A stretch of DNA of 48,104 bases, from positions 1 to 48,104 of the forward strand of contig JAISUL010000030.1 in NCBI GenBank assembly GCA_031272145.1, in the 5' to 3' direction. This document shows, piece by piece, positions 13,600 through 38,132 of the stretch (the first letter of the stretch is position 1; the number at the start of each line of letters is the position of its first letter). Origin of the DNA: Synergistaceae bacterium. GTDB taxonomy: Bacteria; Synergistota; Synergistia; Synergistales; Aminobacteriaceae. The translations under genes and the position numbers were made by a program. The notes beneath the pieces were generated by a model, which was not told where the DNA came from, ran no database searches, and worked only from the letters and a program-made list of their open reading frames with translations.

Positions 13600-14574
13600 T
13601 CATGGCGGGGCTACACTCGCGAAGAGCTTCATGGCCTTCTGCACCACGCGGTAGGCGGGGTTGCTTTCCTTTATTATACCCTCCAGCACCTCCGGGTCGT
13701 CCAGCAGGTGGTAGGTGCACAGGGCTAGCTTCGGCGCGAACCGCCGCAACGTTTCTCTTGCTCCAATCAGCATGTTCCGTTCGTAGCCCTCGATGTCTGC
13801 CTTGATGAAGTCCACGCGGGTCAGGCCGTTCTCGCGGACGAAGTCGTCGATGGTCGTGATGCTGACCGTCCGCTCCTCGCCGCCGTTCACCCGCCCGGCC
13901 AGAGCCGAGTTGGTCGACGAGGCCGGGTTGTTCTTGCCCGCGAAGAAGCGGGACTCGGTCTTGACGTCGCCAAGCCCGGCCATCACCGGGTGGATGTTGG
14001 GGTTCATCGCGGCGGTCTTCAGGAGGTACTCGAAGGTCTCGGCGGTCGGCTCGAAGGCATAGATTTTACTGGCGCCCTTGACCGAGGCGTAGGCGGCGAA
14101 GTCGCCGATCCAGCTTCCGGCGTCGATGACCACGTCGCCTGGTTCGACAGTCACGTCCACCGTATCGTTCCGCAGGCAGTAGGGGCCCTCGGCGAGCTTG
14201 TCGAAGAGATCGCCGATCAGTGACTCGTCGTAGCGGTCGCCGAACTCGGAGTAGACGAGGAACGTGTCGCCCCACCCGAAGTTGAAGAGGGTCTCCTCGT
14301 TCGCCCGATCGAGCAGGGGCAGCCTGACGTCCTTTATGACGTAAGCCCCGTCCTTGACGATGCGCCTTGTTTCAAGAGGCCACGCCCGCAGGAACTTGGC
14401 CTTGCGACGGTTGCATGCCTTTTGGTAAAAGCCCGGGTTGTGCCCAACGACGTTGACGGCGGCCAGGTCGAAGATAGCCAGGAACAGCTCCCAAGGGGTA
14501 GCGCCCCTGTGCGAGAAATTCGACAGCACCTTGCGAGCAGCCGCCAGCTTGCGGCGAATGACGCAGGCGCTCAT
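13600..14574 (-). CDS. FkbM-family SAM-dependent methyltransferase (copy 1)
   Basis: 324 aa, closely related over its whole length to the gene upstream. The Rossmann SAM site is VVIDAGSWIGDFAAYAS, followed by IYAFEPTAETFEYLLK and the FkbM signature DFIKADIEGYERNML. Methyltransferases of this type often O-methylate sugars of surface glycans or natural products; the acceptor here is unknown. N-terminal residues 1-60 are basic and hydrophobic without a clear signal peptide. It is transcribed from a near-consensus promoter on a repeated unit, with a pentanucleotide tract in the leader. The spacing between the repeats and ATG contains no strong Shine-Dalgarno site. Confidence 0.88.
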   Translation of the reverse strand: MSACVIRRKLAAARKVLSNFSHRGATPWELFLAIFDLAAVNVVGHNPGFYQKACNRRKAKFLRAWPLETRRIVKDGAYVIKDVRLPLLDRANEETLFNFGWGDTFLVYSEFGDRYDESLIGDLFDKLAEGPYCLRNDTVDVTVEPGDVVIDAGSWIGDFAAYASVKGASKIYAFEPTAETFEYLLKTAAMNPNIHPVMAGLGDVKTESRFFAGKNNPASSTNSALAGRVNGGEERTVSITTIDDFVRENGLTRVDFIKADIEGYERNMLIGARETLRRFAPKLALCTYHLLDDPEVLEGIIKESNPAYRVVQKAMKLFASVAPP

Positions 14575-14625
14575 AGGCGCGCCTCTGTGAAATGTCTTAG
14601 CGGGAGATTTTCAGCAAACGAAAGG

Positions 14626-14690
14626 GTGCCGTGCCGTGCCGTGCCGTGCCGTGCCGTGCCGTGCCGTGCCGTGCCGTGCCGTGCCGTGCC
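14626..14690. repeat. Pentanucleotide microsatellite, 13 copies of GTGCC (GGCAC on the minus strand)
   Basis: Thirteen perfect tandem copies lie in the 5' leader of FkbM copy 1, starting at the predicted transcription start and ending about 50 bases before the ATG. They can slip during replication. The second FkbM gene has nine copies at the same place. Confidence 0.95.
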
Positions 14691-14802
14691 CATTATACAA
14701 ATGGCGCGGGGGAAGTCAAGGGGCAAAAGCATGATTTTTCCACTCCTTTAGAGAAATTTTCGGAGCGATGGAGCAGCGTCCGATGGGGTGATTATAGCAC
14801 AG
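14691..14802 (-). repeat. Intergenic promoter-bearing repeat unit, copy A
   Basis: About 110 bp that recur twice upstream of FkbM copy 2. Conserved blocks read on the plus strand are CCCATTATACA, GGCGCGGGGGAAGTCAAG, GGGCAAAAGCATGATTTT, CCACTCCTT, AGAAATTTTCGGA, GCAGCGTCCGA and GATTATAGCACAG. The unit encodes the promoter and probably no protein. Confidence 0.85.
14692..14719 (-). promoter_or_regulatory. Near-consensus sigma70 promoter for FkbM copy 1
   Basis: On the minus strand: TTGACT, 16-bp spacer, TATAAT. It is part of the repeated intergenic unit, and the same hexamers and spacer length occur in the other two copies. The GGCAC tract begins two bases after the -10 box. Confidence 0.8.
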
Positions 14803-14824
14803 CGGGGGTGTTATGCGCCCCCGC
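14802..14824 (-). terminator. Hairpin after FkbM copy 2
   Basis: A 7-bp GCGGGGG/CCCCCGC stem with a nine-base loop lies 11 bases past the stop codon of FkbM copy 2. There is no T-run on the minus strand, so termination is uncertain; it could instead protect the 3' end. Confidence 0.4.
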
Positions 14825-14835
14825 CTTGCTGTTTT

Positions 14836-15774
14836 TCACGCGCCGACGCTGGCGAAGAGCTTCTTCGCCTTCTGCACCACGCGATACTCAGGGTTAGCTT
14901 CCTTTATAATGCGCTCCAGCACCTCTGGGTCGTCTGGCAGGTGGTAGGTGCATATAGCCAGCTTCGGCGCGAACCGGCGGAGCGTCTCGGCGGCGCCCAT
15001 GAGCATCTGCCGCTCGGCTCCCTCGATGTCCGCCTTGATGAAGTCCACGCGAGGCAGCGCGTTTTCCCTCACGAAGTCATCTATCGTGGTGATGCTGACA
15101 GTCCGCTCCTCGCCGGCGACTCGCCCTGGCATTAGCGTATTGCTGACTGAGTTCATCTCGTGGGTCACGAAGAACGACGCCGACGCCTTTGCTTCGCCGA
15201 GCCCGGCTTTCACAGGGTGGATGTTCGGGTTGAGCGCGGCGGTCTTCAGGAGGTACTCGAACGTCTCGTCGGTAGGCTCGAAGGCGTAGATGGCAGATGC
15301 ACCTTTGGCCGAGGCGTAGGCGGCGAAGTCCCCCGCCCAGCTCCCGGCATCGATCACGACGTCCCCTTGTGCGACCCTGACGTCGACCGTCCCGTTTCGC
15401 AGACCGTAGGGCCCTTCGGGCAGCTTGACGAAGAGGTCGTCGATAAGTGACTCGTCGTAGCAGTCATCGTACTTGGTGTACACGAGCAGGGTGTCTCTGA
15501 ATATTCCTGTGAACAGCATCTTCTCATACGCCGCGTTCATCCGCGGGAGTTTAGCGTCTCGAAACGCCCAGCACCCATCGCGGCGAGCCTCGCGCCTCAG
15601 GCGTTCCTCGTACACCGCCTCGCTGAGCTTGCGATCGCGGCCAGTGAAATTCGCTATGGCATAGCTAACGTAGAGCAAAAGAAATTCCCAAGGGGTGTAG
15701 CGGAGGGCGATAGCGTCAGAGGTTAGGTATTTCGCTGTTTGGAGCTTGCGGGATAGCAGACGCAGGAGGCTCAT
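14836..15774 (-). CDS. FkbM-family SAM-dependent methyltransferase (copy 2)
   Basis: 312 aa. SAM motif I VVIDAGSWAGDFA at 139-151, the adenosine-binding strand YAFEPTDETFEYL at 163-175, and VDFIKADIEGAER at 243-255. It shares most of its central and C-terminal sequence with copy 1, including the final YRVVQKAKKLFASV, so the two arose by tandem duplication. The N-terminal 120 residues are more divergent, which may alter the acceptor. Two tandem promoter units precede it. Start ATG at 15774 with GGAGG upstream. Confidence 0.88.
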   Translation of the reverse strand: MSLLRLLSRKLQTAKYLTSDAIALRYTPWEFLLLYVSYAIANFTGRDRKLSEAVYEERLRREARRDGCWAFRDAKLPRMNAAYEKMLFTGIFRDTLLVYTKYDDCYDESLIDDLFVKLPEGPYGLRNGTVDVRVAQGDVVIDAGSWAGDFAAYASAKGASAIYAFEPTDETFEYLLKTAALNPNIHPVKAGLGEAKASASFFVTHEMNSVSNTLMPGRVAGEERTVSITTIDDFVRENALPRVDFIKADIEGAERQMLMGAAETLRRFAPKLAICTYHLPDDPEVLERIIKEANPEYRVVQKAKKLFASVGA

Positions 15775-15820
15775 CTAATGGCCTCCGTGAGAGGGGTTAG
15801 GCTATGGGTACAAGAATAGG

Positions 15821-15867
15821 CCGTGCCGTGCCGTGCCGTGCCGTGCCGTGCCGTGCCGTGCCGTGCC
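15821..15867. repeat. Pentanucleotide microsatellite, nine copies of CCGTG
   Basis: Nine copies plus two bases in the leader of FkbM copy 2, directly downstream of its proximal promoter. Same unit and orientation as the tract before copy 1. Confidence 0.95.
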
Positions 15868-15970
15868 CATTATACAGGTGGCGCGGGGGAAGTCAAGGGG
15901 CAAAAGCATGATTTTTTCCACTCCTTCTATAGAAATTTTCGGAACACCTAAGGGCAGCGTCCGAACCGTG
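15868..15970 (-). repeat. Intergenic promoter-bearing repeat unit, copy B
   Basis: Nearly identical to copy C, which follows in tandem with a period of 105 bp. It carries the same CATGATTTT, CCACTCCTT and TTTTCGGAACACC blocks. Confidence 0.9.
15869..15896 (-). promoter_or_regulatory. Proximal sigma70 promoter for FkbM copy 2
   Basis: TTGACT, 16-bp spacer, TATAAT on the minus strand, in repeat unit B, feeding straight into the nine-copy GGCAC tract. Confidence 0.8.
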
Positions 15971-16087
15971 CCCATTATACAAGTGGCGCGGGGGAAGTCA
16001 AGGGGCAAAAGCATGATTTTTCCACTCCTTCTATAGAAATTTTCGGAACACCTAAGGGCAGCGTCCGACCGGAGGATTATAGCACAG
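15971..16087 (-). repeat. Intergenic promoter-bearing repeat unit, copy C
   Basis: Second tandem unit upstream of FkbM copy 2. Only one pentanucleotide (CCGTG) remains at its border with unit B, giving 1, 9 and 13 pentamers at the three units. It extends to GATTATAGCACAGG as in copy A. Confidence 0.9.
15974..16001 (-). promoter_or_regulatory. Distal sigma70 promoter for FkbM copy 2
   Basis: TTGACT, 16-bp spacer, TATAAT on the minus strand in repeat unit C, 105 bp upstream of the proximal promoter. Confidence 0.75.
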
Positions 16088-16119
16088 GGGCCGGGCGCTG
16101 CGTTGTGGCTCCTATGGTG

Positions 16120-18298: not shown

Positions 18299-20191
18299 GT
18301 GCGGACGCTGCTCAACTGGCTGTTCGTTTTCTGGAAGGGGCTGGCGAAGCGCTCCGCATGCGTCGCGCTGCTCGACATGATCCTGCTGCTCTTCGCCGCC
18401 TACATGGGTTACGCCATAAGGCTGACCCTGTTCATACCGCGCGTCTACGTCTCAGACCTCGTGCTCGTGAGCCTGGCCTTCTCGCTCCTTACGGTCGGGG
18501 TATTTTGTGTTGGGGGACAATACAGGGTTCTTTGGGTTCAGGCAGGGCTGGAGGATTATCTTAAATTTGCCCGGCTCTACCTGCTTTCGGCCATCATCTT
18601 CACCGTCATATCCTCTTTATGGCGCTGGGGCATCAGGCCCTGGGGGCTCAGGCCGTTAGCAATCCTGCCGCGCACCTCGCTCGTGATCATGCTGTTCGCC
18701 GGGGTGCTCCTGTGCGGCGGACTGCGGGTGTCCTGGAGGTTCTCGCTCATACGCGCGCGGGAGCGGCCTAACGCGCTCATAGTCGGGGCAGGGGAGGCAG
18801 GGGCGATTCTCGCGCGCGACCTCATGAGGCACGGCGGCGACCTCGTCCCGCTCGGCTTCGTCGACGATGACCCGGCCAAGCAGGGCAAGTCAGTGTCGGG
18901 CCTCACTGTGCTCGGGCACTGCTCCGACATAGCCGCCATAGCCCGCAGCCGCGGTGTGAAGGCCGTCCTGGTGGCCATCCCGTCGGCGAACCGCGGAAGG
19001 ATACGTGCGCTGTACGACGTGCTGGCCCCGCTCGGCCTGAGCGTCAGAGTGCTGCCGAGCCTCAGCGAGCTTGCGAACGGAAGCGTCGGTAAAAGCCTGA
19101 TCCTGAGCCTGCGCCACGTGAGCCTCGAAGACCTGCTCGGTCGCGAGCCAGTCCAGATGGACATGCGCGGAATATCGGATTATCTGCGCGGGCGGAGCGT
19201 GCTCGTGACCGGCGCGGGCGGCTCCATCGGGAGCGAGATAGTCCGGCAGGTTTTGGGGTGCGGGCCGAGGGAGGTCATAGGGCTAGGCCACGGGGAGCAG
19301 TCAATTTACCTTTTGACTGAATCCGAGTCCGGGGCAGCGGTTCGCCCTGTCATAGCTGACGTGGCCGACGAGACCGCCATGCGCTGCGTGTTCGAGGAGC
19401 GGCGCCCCGCGGTGGTGTTTCACGCCGCTGCGCACAAGCACGTCCCCCTGATGGAGGACAACCCGCGCGAGGCCCTGAGGGTGAACGCGCTAGGGACTCG
19501 GACTGTCGCGCGGCTGGCTGGCGAGTTCGGGGCCGAGCGGATGGTGCTCATATCGACGGACAAGGCCGTGAACCCCACGAGCGTGATGGGTGCCAGCAAG
19601 CGCGCAGCGGAGGTCATTCTGGGGGAGGTGCAGGAGGAGTTCCCCGGCACGGTCTACACGGCGGTGCGCTTCGGAAACGTGCTGGGCAGCCGCGGCAGCG
19701 TCGTTCCGAAGTTCGAGAGGCAGATAGCCGACGGAGGCCCTGTGACCGTGACCGACCCGGCGATGAAGCGGTACTTTATGCTCATCCCTGAAGCGGTAAG
19801 CCTGGTCATTCAGGCTGGGGCTATGGGGCGGGGCCTGTTCGTGCTGGACATGGGCGAGCCAGTGCCGATAGCGGAGATGGCCGAGCTCCTGATTCGGCTG
19901 CACGGCTACGAGCCTGGCAGGGACATCAAGATAGTCTACACGGGGCCGCGCCCTGGGGAGAAGCTCTCCGAGGAGCTGTTTTACGACCCAGCGTCCGTGC
20001 ACCCGACGCCGAACCCGAAGGTCTTCGCGTCGAACCTGCTGGCCAAGGACGGAATATCAGCCGCCCTGGACGACGCCCTGAGGACGCGCGAGGGGTCGCT
20101 GGCGCTGCTGGAAAGCGTGGGACTCTTCTCAGGCTCAGGCTCAGGCTCAGGCCCATGCTCGAATGGAGATGCGGCACGTGATAGAGCGTAA
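18299..20191 (+). CDS. Membrane-bound nucleoside-diphosphate-sugar 4,6-dehydratase (CapD/WbpM/PglF type)
   Basis: Likely converts UDP-GlcNAc to the UDP-4-keto-6-deoxy sugar for surface glycans. Four N-terminal membrane helices (about residues 1-135) lead into a first Rossmann domain (ALIVGAGEAGAILARDL) and then the catalytic SDR domain (VLVTGAGGSIGSEIV; LISTDKAVNPTSVMGASKR with the active-site residues). 630 aa, the normal length. GTG start immediately after the preceding stop, with no clear ribosome site. The C-terminus ends in a Ser-Gly run encoded by four GGCTCA hexamers (20130-20153), an in-frame microsatellite, and reads into a remnant of another gene. Confidence 0.9.
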   Translation: MRTLLNWLFVFWKGLAKRSACVALLDMILLLFAAYMGYAIRLTLFIPRVYVSDLVLVSLAFSLLTVGVFCVGGQYRVLWVQAGLEDYLKFARLYLLSAIIFTVISSLWRWGIRPWGLRPLAILPRTSLVIMLFAGVLLCGGLRVSWRFSLIRARERPNALIVGAGEAGAILARDLMRHGGDLVPLGFVDDDPAKQGKSVSGLTVLGHCSDIAAIARSRGVKAVLVAIPSANRGRIRALYDVLAPLGLSVRVLPSLSELANGSVGKSLILSLRHVSLEDLLGREPVQMDMRGISDYLRGRSVLVTGAGGSIGSEIVRQVLGCGPREVIGLGHGEQSIYLLTESESGAAVRPVIADVADETAMRCVFEERRPAVVFHAAAHKHVPLMEDNPREALRVNALGTRTVARLAGEFGAERMVLISTDKAVNPTSVMGASKRAAEVILGEVQEEFPGTVYTAVRFGNVLGSRGSVVPKFERQIADGGPVTVTDPAMKRYFMLIPEAVSLVIQAGAMGRGLFVLDMGEPVPIAEMAELLIRLHGYEPGRDIKIVYTGPRPGEKLSEELFYDPASVHPTPNPKVFASNLLAKDGISAALDDALRTREGSLALLESVGLFSGSGSGSGPCSNGDAARDRA

Positions 20192-20287
20192 AGCGTACAT
20201 GAGGCGCCTGGCCGCGCTGCGGGACGCGCACATCATAAAGATAGTGACCGGCATAAGGCGCTGGACTGGCTGCTTGAGGAGTCATAA
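20163..20287 (+). pseudogene. Collapsed AAA_14/DUF4143-type ATPase gene (both ends kept, middle deleted)
   Basis: From the ATG at 20163 the frame reads MEMRHVIERKAYMRRLAAL then RDAHIIKIVTGIRR, the characteristic N-terminus of AAA_14 ATPases just before the Walker A loop. Instead of GKST the sequence jumps, one frame over, to KALDWLLEES and a TAA at 20285, which resembles the C-terminal end of such proteins. About 1.1 kb seems to have been lost by a deletion joining at or near GGCATAA. The head overlaps the dehydratase 3' end by 29 bp. Confidence 0.6.
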
Positions 20288-20311
20288 TGATGTTTTTGGA
20301 GGTGCGCTTAA

Positions 20312-21385
20312 ATGAAAATTGCCGTTGGATGTGACCACGCTGGGTTTGTTTTGAAGGACGCCGTCGTCGGGTTCCTGCGCTCGCGCGGGATTGACGTCGC
20401 CGACAAGGGCGTGTTCTCGGCGGAGAAGGCCGACTACCCTGATCAGGCCTTGGCGGTCGCTGGGGCAGTGGCCTCAGGCGAGGCGGACGCCGGCGTCCTG
20501 ATGTGCGGGACAGGGATAGGCGCATCAATTGCCGCGAACAAGGTGAAGGGCGTCCGCGCCGGGACATGCAACGACCCCGAAGCCGCCCGGCTCGGCAAGA
20601 CCCACAACAACCTGAACGTCCTCTGCATGGGCGGGCGAGTCATCAAACCGGACGAGGCTGGGGCTATCCTGTCGGCTTGGCTAGACTCCGAGTTCGAGGG
20701 AGGGCGGCATCTGGTCAGGATAAACAAGATAGCCGCAGCCGAGGCGTCCGACCTGTCGGGGCGCGTCGTCATCTTCAACCACCCGCTCGTCCAGCATAAG
20801 ATCGGGATAATCCGCGACAAGAACACCAGCGTGAAGGAGTTCCGCGAGCTCGTTCAGGAGATCGCCGGCCTGATGGTCTACGAGGTCACGCGCAACCTGC
20901 CCCTCACGGACGCAGTAGTTGAGACGCCCGTGGCCAGCGCCGCCGTCCGGAGCATATCGGGGAAGAAGCTGGCGGTCGTGCCTGTGCTTCGCGCTGGGCT
21001 CGGCATGGTGGACGGGATACTCCAGCTGATACCCAACGCCAAGGTCGGTCACATAGGCCTTTACCGAGACCCTGCCACGCTGGCGCCCGTGGAGTACTAC
21101 TGCAAGCTGCCGCCGGACATCGGTGAGAGGGATATTTTCATACTCGATCCGATGCTCGCGACGGGCGGCTCGGCGGCGGCGGCCATCTCCCTCGTGAAGC
21201 AGCGTGGCGGCAGGAAGGTGTCCCTGCTCTGCCTGATAGCCGCGCCGGAGGGCATAAAGAAGGTGCGCGAAAGCCACCCGGACGTGGAGATATTCGCCGC
21301 CGCGCTGGACGATAGGCTGAACGACCACGGCTACATCGTCCCAGGCCTCGGCGACGCCGGGGACAGGCTGTTCGGCACCAAATGA
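20312..21385 (+). CDS. Fused ribose-5-phosphate isomerase B / uracil phosphoribosyltransferase
   Basis: 357 aa. Residues 1-145 are Rpi[12 protein letters not shown], catalytic Cys in [15 protein letters not shown], and [15 protein letters not shown]. Residues 150-357 are [32 protein letters not shown], the PRPP loop [10 protein letters not shown] and the uracil-binding end [15 protein letters not shown]. The first interconverts ribulose- and ribose-5-phosphate; the second makes UMP from uracil and PRPP, so the fusion links two steps of one salvage route. The reading frame through the junction is uninterrupted. ATG preceded by TTTTTGGAGGTGC. Its end overlaps wecA by 4 bp. Confidence 0.92.
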
Positions 21386-22269
21386 ACGTCGCTCTGACTC
21401 TGACGGGGCTGTTCGGGTTCTTCTGGGGCGGGTTCGTCACGCCGCTATCCATCCGGCTGGCCGAGGCGTTCGGCATACTCGACCTGCCCGACCGGCGCAA
21501 GATCCACGCGCGCCCGATGCCGAGGGGGGCGGGCCTCACTCTGTGGAGCGGCTGCCTGCTCTGGTCGCTCTACTTCGTCTCGCACCTGAACGCCGCCTCC
21601 GTCAGGCTCTGCGCGACAGGGGCCACGCTGGTCTTCTTCTGCGGCTACATGGACGACATCAAGTCCCTGAGCCCCTTCGTCCGGCTGGCGGTTCACATGG
21701 CGGCGGCGGCCTTGATGGTTTTTCCCCTCGGCCTGCCGCCCATCCACGCCGCGATATGCTTCGTTTGGGTCACAGGCATGACCAGCGCGTACAACCTTAT
21801 AGACGGAGTGAACGGGCTTTGCATCTCCGTGTTCATATCGTCGGCCTTGGCGCTCGGGCTGCTGAGCGACCCGTACTTCGGCGCGGTCGGTGCCGGGCTG
21901 GCGCTCGGAGTGTTCTGCTGGAACTTTCCTAGGGCTAGCACGTTCTTGGGCGACGGGGGCAGCACGCTTCTGGGTTTCCTGTTCGCGTCGCGCTTCGTCG
22001 CGTCGGCATCGGGCGTTTTGACCAGAGCTCGGCCTCACGAGCTCATCTTCCTGCTCTTCCTGCTCGGAGGGGTTCCGGTGCTCGACACGCTCTTTGCGTT
22101 CAGCCGAAGGGTCGCCAGGGGCAAGTCCCCCTTCTACCCCGACAAAGGGCACCTGCATCATATAATCATGGAGCGCATCGGATCGTCCTTCGCGGCTGTG
22201 GCCTGCCTGCTCACGCTGCACGTCGCGCTGCTTGTCTGCGGGTGCGCCGTGTACGCCAGGCTGAAGTAG
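21382..22269 (+). CDS. wecA: WecA-like undecaprenyl-phosphate GlcNAc-1-phosphate transferase
   Basis: Membrane enzyme that starts a lipid-linked glycan by moving a HexNAc-1-phosphate onto undecaprenyl phosphate. About ten hydrophobic helices; conserved cytosolic motifs [29 protein letters not shown] and the His motif DKGHLHH. 295 aa, ATG overlapping the upstream stop as ATGA. With wecB next door it may feed teichoic- or O-antigen-like polymer synthesis. Confidence 0.9.
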
Positions 22270-22281
22270 GGATTAAGGAAG

Positions 22282-23388
22282 ATGTCCGCTCAGTTAAAGA
22301 TAGCCTGCGTCGTGGGCACCAGGCCTGAGGCGATCAAGATGGCGCCGGTCGTGTTCGCGCTCCGGGAGGCGGCGCACCACGTGTCGGTCGTCGCTAGCGG
22401 CCAGCACTCCGAGATGCTGACTCAGGCTCTGAGCGGCTTCGGCATAGAGCCGGACGTGAACCTCTCCGTGATGAGGGAGGCTCAGACGCTCGACCACGTC
22501 ACGTCCGCCGTCATAGAGGGGGTCGGGCGGTTCCTAGACGAGGCCGGGCAGGACGTCCTGCTGGTTCACGGCGACACGACCACGACGCTTGGGGCGGCCA
22601 TGGCCGGATTTTACCGCGGCGTGCCTGTGGGACACGTCGAGGCAGGCCTGAGGAGCGGGGACATGAGGCGGCCGTTCCCTGAGGAGGCCAACCGCGTGCT
22701 GACAGACAAGCTGTCCACGCTGTTCTTCGCTCCGACCGAGTTGGCCGCGGCGAACCTCAGAGCCGAGGGCGCGGACGAGGCGCGCATCTTCGTCACGGGC
22801 AACACGGTCATCGACGCGCTGTTCATGACGCTCAGACAGAACGCCGCCCGCTCCGGCCTCCCGAAGGGCGCGGTGCTTTTGACTGCGCACAGGCGAGAGT
22901 CGTGGGGAGCCCCGATGGAGAGGATATGCGAGGCAGTCCGCCGCGTGATGGAGGAGCGCCCCGGCCTCCGCCTCGTCGTCCCCCTGCACAAGAACCCGGC
23001 TGTGCGCAGCGTCATCAAAGCCAAGCTCGGCGGCATCGAGAGGGTGACGTTCACCGAGCCGCTTGACTACCCCTCGTTCGTCGCGGCTATGAACGACAGC
23101 CTGTTCATCTTGAGCGACAGCGGCGGGGTTCAGGAGGAGGCGTCGGCGCTTGGGAAGCCAGTGCTGATACTGCGCGAGCTCTCCGAGAGGCCTGAGGCTC
23201 TGACGGACGGAACCGGCGTCCTGGTCGGGACGGACGAGGCGCGGATAGAGGCCGCTGCCCTGCGCCTTATCGACGACGAGGCGTACAGAGGCTCGTTCGC
23301 GGCCAAGCGAGGCAAAAACCCCTTCGGCGACGGACGCGCGGCGGAGCGGATACGCAAGGCAATAGAGAATTTTTTTGGGTTAATTTGA
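22282..23388 (+). CDS. wecB: UDP-N-acetylglucosamine 2-epimerase (non-hydrolysing)
   Basis: Interconverts UDP-GlcNAc and UDP-ManNAc. GT-B fold motifs: VVGTRPEAIKMAPVVF, VHGDTTTTLGAAMAG, GHVEAGLRSGD, PEEANRVLTDKLS, LLTAHRRESWG and the nucleotide-binding SDSGGVQEEASALGKP. 368 aa, full length. ATG with AAGGAAG upstream, 12 bp after wecA. Confidence 0.94.
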   Translation: MSAQLKIACVVGTRPEAIKMAPVVFALREAAHHVSVVASGQHSEMLTQALSGFGIEPDVNLSVMREAQTLDHVTSAVIEGVGRFLDEAGQDVLLVHGDTTTTLGAAMAGFYRGVPVGHVEAGLRSGDMRRPFPEEANRVLTDKLSTLFFAPTELAAANLRAEGADEARIFVTGNTVIDALFMTLRQNAARSGLPKGAVLLTAHRRESWGAPMERICEAVRRVMEERPGLRLVVPLHKNPAVRSVIKAKLGGIERVTFTEPLDYPSFVAAMNDSLFILSDSGGVQEEASALGKPVLILRELSERPEALTDGTGVLVGTDEARIEAAALRLIDDEAYRGSFAAKRGKNPFGDGRAAERIRKAIENFFGLI

Positions 23389-23398
23389 GGTGTTCCAG

Positions 23399-24532
23399 AT
23401 GTCGAGAGACGTTTACTCGGAGCTTGGCGTGAAGAAAATCATCAACGCCGCGGGGACATACACGATGGTCGGCGGCTCTCGCATGAGCGAGGCGACGATC
23501 GAGGCGATGGCGTCGGCGGCGCGGAGCCACGTCGTGATAAGCGAGCTTCAGTCAAAAGTTCAAGAGCGCCTGGCCGTCTTGACGCGGAACGAGGCGGCAT
23601 ACGTGACGACCGGCGCGGCGGCTGCGCTTCACATAACCGGGGCAGCCGCCATCGCCATGCACTGCGGACGGCCTCACGCGTCGCTTGCGCCGGAGGCCGC
23701 AGCCAAGTGCGAGTTCGTCGTCTATCGGGCGCACCGCAACCCCTACGACTGGGCGCTGCGCCTGCTCGGAGCCAAGCTGGTCGAGGTAGGGTTCCCGAAC
23801 ACCATACAGTCCCCCACGAAGCGCGAGCTCGACCTGGCCATAACGGACAGCACGGCGGCGGTATATTACTTTTTCATGCCTCGGGGCGGCTGGATGCCGG
23901 ACGGGGCACTGGGCTTCGACGACACGGTGGAGGTGGCGTCGGCGCGCGGCGTGCCGGTGGTGGTCGACGCAGCGGCTCAGCTTCCCCCCGTAGAGAACCT
24001 CTGGCGGCTAACCGAGCGCGGGGCGTCGGCATGCGTGTTCAGCGGCGGCAAGGACCTGCGAGGGCCTCAGGCCAGCGGCCTGGTGGTCGGGCGGCGCGAA
24101 TTTCTTGCGCACGTCGCGGAGACCGGCTTCCCGACCTACGGCGTCGGGCGGATGTTCAAGCTGGGGCGCGAGGAGATCGTCGGCCTGTGGGCAGCGGTCG
24201 AGCAGTACGTCTCGATGGACCACGCTAAACGGGCAGAGTGGGCTGAGGCGAGGGTTCGCGGCATGGCGGAGGCATTATCTGCGGCGGACGGGAACGTCTC
24301 GGTCGAGTACTGTTACCCAAACGAGGCAGGGCAGCCGATGCCGAGGGCGTTGGTGCGCTTCAAAAAGCACAGGGCTGAGTTCGTGCTGCGCCGCCTGATG
24401 GAGGGCGAGCCGCCCATATTCACCAACGCCGCCGGTGAGGACGGCGTTTTCGTAAACCCAATGACTCTGAGGGACGACGAGTTCGGCATGGTCGTCCGGC
24501 GCCTGTGCGAGATAGGAGGAGAAGGAGAATGA
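23399..24532 (+). CDS. SelA-like PLP-dependent enzyme (DgaE/EF_0838 type)
   Basis: 377 aa aminotransferase-fold protein related to selenocysteine synthase. The PLP lysine lies in VFSGGKDLRGPQASGLVVG, preceded by the cofactor Asp in VPVVVDAAAQLPP; the N-terminal LGVKKIINAAGTYTMVGGS is typical. Real SelA proteins are about 450 aa and act with tRNA; this shorter group includes D-glucosaminate-6-phosphate ammonia-lyase and other lyases. Pairing with the next gene, as in EF_0838/EF_0837-like loci, supports a catabolic lyase. Substrate unknown. ATG at 23399 with GAGGTG six bases upstream; a GTG at 23390 is an alternative. Confidence 0.8.
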   Translation: MSRDVYSELGVKKIINAAGTYTMVGGSRMSEATIEAMASAARSHVVISELQSKVQERLAVLTRNEAAYVTTGAAAALHITGAAAIAMHCGRPHASLAPEAAAKCEFVVYRAHRNPYDWALRLLGAKLVEVGFPNTIQSPTKRELDLAITDSTAAVYYFFMPRGGWMPDGALGFDDTVEVASARGVPVVVDAAAQLPPVENLWRLTERGASACVFSGGKDLRGPQASGLVVGRREFLAHVAETGFPTYGVGRMFKLGREEIVGLWAAVEQYVSMDHAKRAEWAEARVRGMAEALSAADGNVSVEYCYPNEAGQPMPRALVRFKKHRAEFVLRRLMEGEPPIFTNAAGEDGVFVNPMTLRDDEFGMVVRRLCEIGGEGE

Positions 24533-37691: not shown

Positions 37692-38132
37692 ATGTTCAAA
37701 ATCATGCCGCTGATAAGGTACATCGACGGCACAGAGTACCCGGACACTCCGATGAACCGCTGTCTCTGCCGTATCGCCAAGTGGCTGAAGGCACGCGAGG
37801 AGAACGCCCGCCTGCGCGTCGAGTGGCTGAAGGCGCGCGAAGATAAGGCACGCCTGCGCGTCGAGCAGTTAAAGGCGCGTCAGGAGGAACTGAATGCGCG
37901 CGCGCGGGAACACTGGCGGGAGTTCAACCGAGAGTTCCGTCCCGTCGAGGGGTGGGGCAAGTGGTCTCTCAAGTGCCTGCTCAAGTTCGGCAAGTGGACG
38001 TGCAAGGCCGCGTTCTGGGCCGGCATCGCCTTCCTTATTTTTGTACAGGTCGTCTTAATTATAGTAGGACTACCAGGAGCACTCGGTGGACTCCACGTCG
38101 GCCTCGGCTTCATGGGGTTATTCCTGTTCTAG
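37692..38132 (+). CDS. Coiled-coil protein with C-terminal membrane segment
   Basis: 146 aa. N-terminal motif EYPDTPMNRCLCRIAKW, then three near-repeats of a 14-residue unit (WLKAREENARLRVE, WLKAREDKARLRVE, QLKARQEE) predicting a charged helix or coiled coil at residues 35-80, a Trp-rich amphipathic stretch, and a C-terminal hydrophobic segment AFLIFVQVVLIIVGLPGALGG. The repeats are also 42-nt DNA repeats. ATG with GAAGGAGGCGAGC upstream. A decayed paralogue is at 40569. No family recognised; it could be a phage-borne accessory or membrane-acting protein. Confidence 0.7.
   Translation: MFKIMPLIRYIDGTEYPDTPMNRCLCRIAKWLKAREENARLRVEWLKAREDKARLRVEQLKARQEELNARAREHWREFNREFRPVEGWGKWSLKCLLKFGKWTCKAAFWAGIAFLIFVQVVLIIVGLPGALGGLHVGLGFMGLFLF

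Follow-up and report, generated by a model that had tools for sequence, protein, structure and literature searches.

The window analyzed here, a 48,104-nucleotide stretch of DNA corresponding to contig C49 of a 2.05-Mb genome in 107 contigs, carries on its minus strand two genes previously annotated as FkbM methyltransferases, an assignment borne out by a PF05050 (Methyltransf_21) domain in each product: copy 1 (324 aa; 13600-14574; E 1.2e-19) and copy 2 (312 aa; 14836-15774; E 1.1e-18). The named closest relatives of these proteins come mostly from Synergistaceae or Synergistales of insect and ruminant guts, with habitats taken from record names. GGCAC repeats precede both genes on the same strand. 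TRF detected two perfect arrays with a 5-nt unit, one of 13.0 copies at 14626-14690 and one of 9.6 copies at 15820-15867; they hold a (GGCAC)13 tract at 14626-14690 and, from TRF combined with the sequence itself, a (GGCAC)9 tract at 15823-15867. Two tandem 105-bp units lie before copy 2 (15863-16072, minus strand), and the distal one holds a single GGCAC; each unit comprises 35 codons, and the reading frame is therefore preserved. These findings agree with the copy numbers of 13, 9 and 1 and with the tandem arrangement described in the initial annotation.

Also present as first described are three copies of TTGACT-N16-TATAAT on the minus strand, aimed at the FkbM genes. Each copy has 11 of 12 consensus matches, whereas the number expected by chance from shuffles of the window is 0. 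We refer to this promoter-like pair as P2; it is found within the leader ORF of copy 1 (14692-14719), within the leader ORF of copy 2 (15869-15896) and in the distal tandem unit (15974-16001). The tract had been placed right beside the -10 box, and it begins one base past TATAAT (TATAATG followed by GGCAC). A second element, P1, is an extended -10 box (TGTGCTATAAT) located on the minus strand 5' of leader ORF 1 (14791-14801), where it is a candidate promoter for the leader mRNA, and 5' of leader ORF 2 (16076-16086). A P1-type TGC-TATAAT box also precedes the leader ORF in rumen relatives. A search of the DNA against Rfam gave no match, and no tRNA was found. Adjoining the FkbM pair, at 18299-24532, is a divergent polysaccharide-type cluster with genes for Polysacc_synt_2, an RpiB-UPRTase fusion, a glycosyl transferase 4 and a UDP-GlcNAc 2-epimerase. 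A 42-nt repeat at 37780-37886 (2.5 copies, unit length a multiple of three) is apparently coding and does not belong to the switch type.

In the window, the repeat does not lie within the FkbM reading frame, and FkbM has its own Shine-Dalgarno (SD) sequence and ATG. The tract of copy 1 is spanned by a 53-aa leader ORF with an AAGGAG-ATG start (14571-14732, minus strand), and at the assembled n=13 its TGA falls inside the ATGA of the FkbM start, the coupled phase. The leader ORF of copy 2 (35 aa; 15802-15909, minus strand) stops 30 nt upstream of the gene at the assembled n=9 and is thus uncoupled, and by computation it would terminate at the ATGA of FkbM copy 2 at n=10. Leader ORF 2 would grow to 70 aa if it began at the in-frame start of the upstream tandem unit (16014). 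Every device of the window family has an SD and a start codon upstream of the tract, with no stop before the tract. Moreover, the FkbM SD of this family pairs with codons 2-4 of the gene: the hairpin AGGCGC-GCCTATGA-GCGCCT (14565-14584, minus strand) is predicted to bury the SD and start of copy 1, and GGAGGC-CATTAGATGA-GCCTCC (15765-15786, minus strand) those of copy 2. The SD hairpins of the five FkbM paralogues of this genome are within the most stable 3-9% of starts in their own genome; they stand out by hairpin energy only, since the number of SD-hairpin pairs does not distinguish them from background, where 55% of starts have at least 6 such pairs. No terminator was found in the window leaders, the sole terminator-like site lying outside them on the plus strand. 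The leader of copy 1 (about 14605-14620) and that of the paralogue on C29 contain TTTGCTGAAAATCTCC.

A search of this genome for the unit, as had been proposed, recovered GGCAC or GGCTC tracts with the box, all of them before FkbM paralogues. Long GGCAC arrays number only four (n = 13, 9, 9 and 13), and all four have the same TATAATG box just before them and an FkbM paralogue 45-51 nt after. In the fifth paralogue (C29), the corresponding position holds (GGCTC)5, preceded by TTGACA-N16-TATAAT. The five paralogues (copy 1, copy 2, C59, C30 and C29) all follow one pattern: a single repeat phase brings the leader stop to +1 relative to the FkbM start, and the remaining two place it at -25 to -39. 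At C59 and C30 the -35 box is degraded to TTGCTT, and inspection by eye revealed no clear P1, so these two would depend on upstream transcription. The suggestion that the unit is mobile was not supported here. We rejected a mobile promoter element in this genome since no copies were found at unrelated genes; because all GGCAC and GGCTC units precede FkbM paralogues, the unit was duplicated with the gene and travels with it in this genome. In contrast, rumen relatives carry one repeat module before unrelated genes (L196, L197 and L211). Two other genes of the window genome have comparable leaders: a related gene on C16 with (CAGG)21 in its leader, and a gene on C19 resembling UDP-galactopyranose mutase with (GCGGCCCA)6 after TATAAT, which couple in one phase at +5 and +1, respectively. 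At L278, in the same genome, the leader fuses in frame to a GT2 in one phase.

From the anatomy, phases, hairpins and conserved logic, all read from sequence, we infer that the FkbM genes are controlled by a repeat-containing leader ORF through frame-dependent translational coupling, a model to which we assign a probability of about 0.78. The mRNA, coming from P1 or from upstream genes, would carry an SD and a start codon 5' of the repeat, and leader ribosomes would translate through the repeat. In the right frame, one of three phases, they would move past the FkbM Shine-Dalgarno and open the hairpin, terminate at the TGA that overlaps the ATG of FkbM and then re-initiate, presumably giving the ON state. 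In the other two phases they would stop 25-39 nt short and the hairpin would stay closed (putatively OFF), and slippage of the 5-nt unit in living cells would shift the phase. Given the strength of the FkbM SDs, some expression may leak through in the uncoupled phases. The likely effect is stochastic methylation of a surface glycan.

We then considered how widely these features occur among relatives. In gut bacteria, simple repeats upstream of FkbM homologues numbered 38 in 55.6 kb versus 48 in 571 kb of the same loci, a density of 0.68/kb against 0.084/kb. In a rumen genus (g16), an extended -10 (GCTATAAT), TTGACA and TAWAAT follow one another in fixed order at 48 places in 19 genomes, and the reversed control of this three-box pattern gave 0 matches. 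The second spacer is N16-17 in 48 matches, N8-15 in 5 and N18-25 in 17 (largely N18), a concentration expected of a sigma70 promoter. A repeat starts -2 to +4 nt from the second -10 in 45 of 47 distinct g16 places. The repeat units comprise 30 distinct sequences of 4, 5, 7 or 8 nt and none of 6 or 9, whereas of 43 background repeats with 4-9-nt units counted in the window genome, 25 were 6- or 9-mers; the background survey was made on samples, 400 kb of G036 and 668 kb of G000. About 45 devices were found in rumen relatives, mostly before glycan genes; the genes 3' of them include GT1, GT2 and GT-D glycosyltransferases, LicD, bacterial sugar transferase, pyruvyl transferase, Stealth proteins and methyltransferases. 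In some (L185, L199, L204, L210 and L216), one phase fuses the leader in frame to a glycosyltransferase or other product. Many devices are assembled in an uncoupled phase with their genes intact, the pattern that switching loci should show. In rumen devices the tract is directly followed by a loosely conserved box resembling TTGTCTGAAAT(T/C)TCC. Many contigs end in or at tracts (L145, L153, L158, L162, L170, L180, L188, L189, L198, L207, L221 and L222); since assemblies break there, more devices exist than were counted, and the tracts may be mixed in length.

The reading frame after the tract ends within -15 to +20 of the gene start in 23 of 24 devices, versus 12.8 expected from random genes of the same genomes, and the leader ends exactly in ATGA in 14 of 24 versus 4.0 expected (P about 1e-5). 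Such P values are indicative, since the devices share ancestry (the five paralogues are related and L196, L197 and L211 share a module) and the nulls ignore relatedness. With a leader as short as about 50 nt, one frame extends to the start in some 60% of random genes; therefore, the window copies alone prove little, and the case is carried by the set as a whole. In each of 18 rumen FkbM leaders, a single frame stays open after the tract, covering 120-155 nt and crossing a terminator, and the other two close 93-135 nt short. This terminator covaries: across 16 sequences its stem shows 100% pairing, and 6 of the pairs have changed on both sides (0 of 500 shuffles). Because units are never a multiple of three and exactly one phase couples or fuses in all five paralogues and in dozens of relatives, these patterns argue that repeat number is read out as reading frame.

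Among known systems, the closest is the pil1/pil3 switch of Streptococcus gallolyticus, in which GCAGA repeats in a leader peptide move its stop and hence control a terminator; the pil1 switch is experimentally proven, and its promoter and start site lie upstream of the leader (PMC3894217). A literature search found no direct precedent besides pil1. As in pil1, the window has a 5-nt repeat, not a multiple of three, in a short leader ORF with a ribosome-binding site and start, and only in some phases does repeat number bring the leader stop near or past a control element. Like pil1, the rumen FkbM devices have a terminator between repeat and gene, and they are predicted to work like its attenuator. 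In contrast, the window leaders lack a terminator, their stop overlaps the gene start (ATGA) and the SD hairpin would be the lock; with the same frame logic but no terminator, they are by predicted anatomy a translational-coupling variant rather than members of the attenuator type. Unlike in pil1, a promoter-like pair overlaps the leader ORF here, and there are dozens of loci, mostly glycan genes, with 30 repeat units. The neuO heptanucleotide is a classical case of phase variation by a repeat in the coding sequence (PMC13001214). It shares with our devices a repeat that is not a multiple of three and frame-dependent ON/OFF states, and L185, L199, L204, L210, L216 and L278 belong to this type; in the window, however, the repeat lies outside the FkbM frame and the leader, when coupled, ends at +1 relative to the FkbM start. 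In Moraxella catarrhalis uspA1/uspA2, repeats between promoter and start codon set expression level by copy number (cited in PMC4679880). There too the repeat is in the transcribed leader of a surface-related gene, but the frame constraint and leader ORF here point to translation. Repeats of hif and nadA act on promoter spacing (for nadA, PMC2791445); ours are likewise close to a promoter, but the tract lies 3' of the -10 and not in or upstream of the promoter spacer. The kind of switch proposed here is known; its form in these bacteria is new, and it recurs at many loci.

The leader-frame model leaves P2 unexplained. Transcription from P2 is predicted to begin within the repeat, past the leader start codon, so that P2 transcripts cannot supply the leader switch. 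The P2 -35 box occupies the spacer between SD and start in many relatives. Codon-driven conservation of TTGACA was rejected, because among FkbM relatives the motif is found in two different frames with respect to the leader start; it is therefore conserved as DNA. One explanation, which we regard as unlikely, is that P2 serves the tract, with the open complex or transcription start in the repeat raising slippage while the readout is still the leader frame. It would account for a P2 position that is nearly fixed relative to the tract across 30 unrelated repeat units and for transcripts that, without the leader start codon, are unusable for frame readout, and P2 is found at four of five repeats with 7- or 8-nt units in an unbiased 400-kb sample of one rumen genome; however, P2 is absent at L278, L152 and L150, and its -35 is degraded at C59 and C30. 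It is similarly doubtful that P2 is a dedicated mutability element, one that raises slippage of the switch by opening or transcribing the tract, in a portable module (promoter, ribosome start, repeat and coupling stop) spread over the surface-glycan genes of gut Synergistaceae.

In the initial annotation, repeat number was proposed to act at the TTGACT/TATAAT promoter by altering the initially transcribed sequence or the fold of the leader; transcription or mRNA stability would change accordingly. P2 is a near-consensus promoter, its matches in relatives are concentrated at sigma70 spacing (48 at N16-17) and the tract begins -2 to +4 nt from the -10, all of which would suit this idea. Yet at n of about 4 or more the first ~15 nt are always repeat, so extra units leave the first transcribed bases unchanged and change only leader length and reading frame. 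Furthermore, the proposal predicts no frame constraint, yet no unit length is divisible by three, and the P2 start site always lies downstream of the leader start codon. We rejected it as the main mechanism on the frame constraint and consider it very unlikely; a phase-variable switch on glycan-type methyltransferases is supported, but not the route through initially transcribed sequence or leader fold. That the tracts are fixed or neutral and the coupling accidental deserves least credence, for although there is one genome per species and (GTTCGCA)8.3 has equal length in three genomes (L196, L197 and L211), the repeats are perfect and unpunctuated, n differs between paralogues, and both the enrichment upstream of FkbM homologues (0.68 versus 0.084/kb) and the frame statistics (no units of a multiple of three; coupling in 23 of 24 versus 12.8) oppose it.

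Under the leader-frame model, pil1-style leader-peptide switching, reported in one streptococcus, would be a general strategy, spread over dozens of loci in gut Synergistaceae with signs in termite spirochaetes, and would use two different locks, an SD hairpin and a terminator, on one frame logic. The genes concerned are mostly glycan genes and likely to shape contact with phage and host. Gene callers that start at the second ATG miss such a switch completely, and the fixed promoter-repeat geometry raises the question of whether transcription start drives repeat mutation.

Related arrangements were seen elsewhere. In G037, of another genus, TATAATG(GGCAC)4 (L135:1507-1527) precedes a gene for a probable secreted protein, and one leader phase ends 5 nt before the ATG. 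Upstream of FkbM homologues of termite-gut Spirochaetaceae (L086:2348, L090:100 and L109:2196) is a C14 tract, and the frame downstream of it closes at the FkbM ATGA, a recurrence of the leader-coupling logic in another phylum. Poly-G (11-15) or GA (8-19) tracts lie inside the FkbM homologues of L165, L084, L120, L111 and L173, and that of L165 (on a contig shared with L108) is split over two frames; these intragenic tracts would represent ordinary coding phase variation within one gene family. The window genome itself probably has a large phase-variable repertoire. It contains many long (GA/CT)11-27 dinucleotide tracts, many apparently intragenic (L273:8135-8190 and 14905-14927, L250:6662-6698, L254:2092-2137 and L169:8842-8915), and two of them lie, by eye, in GT8-like glycosyltransferase frames.
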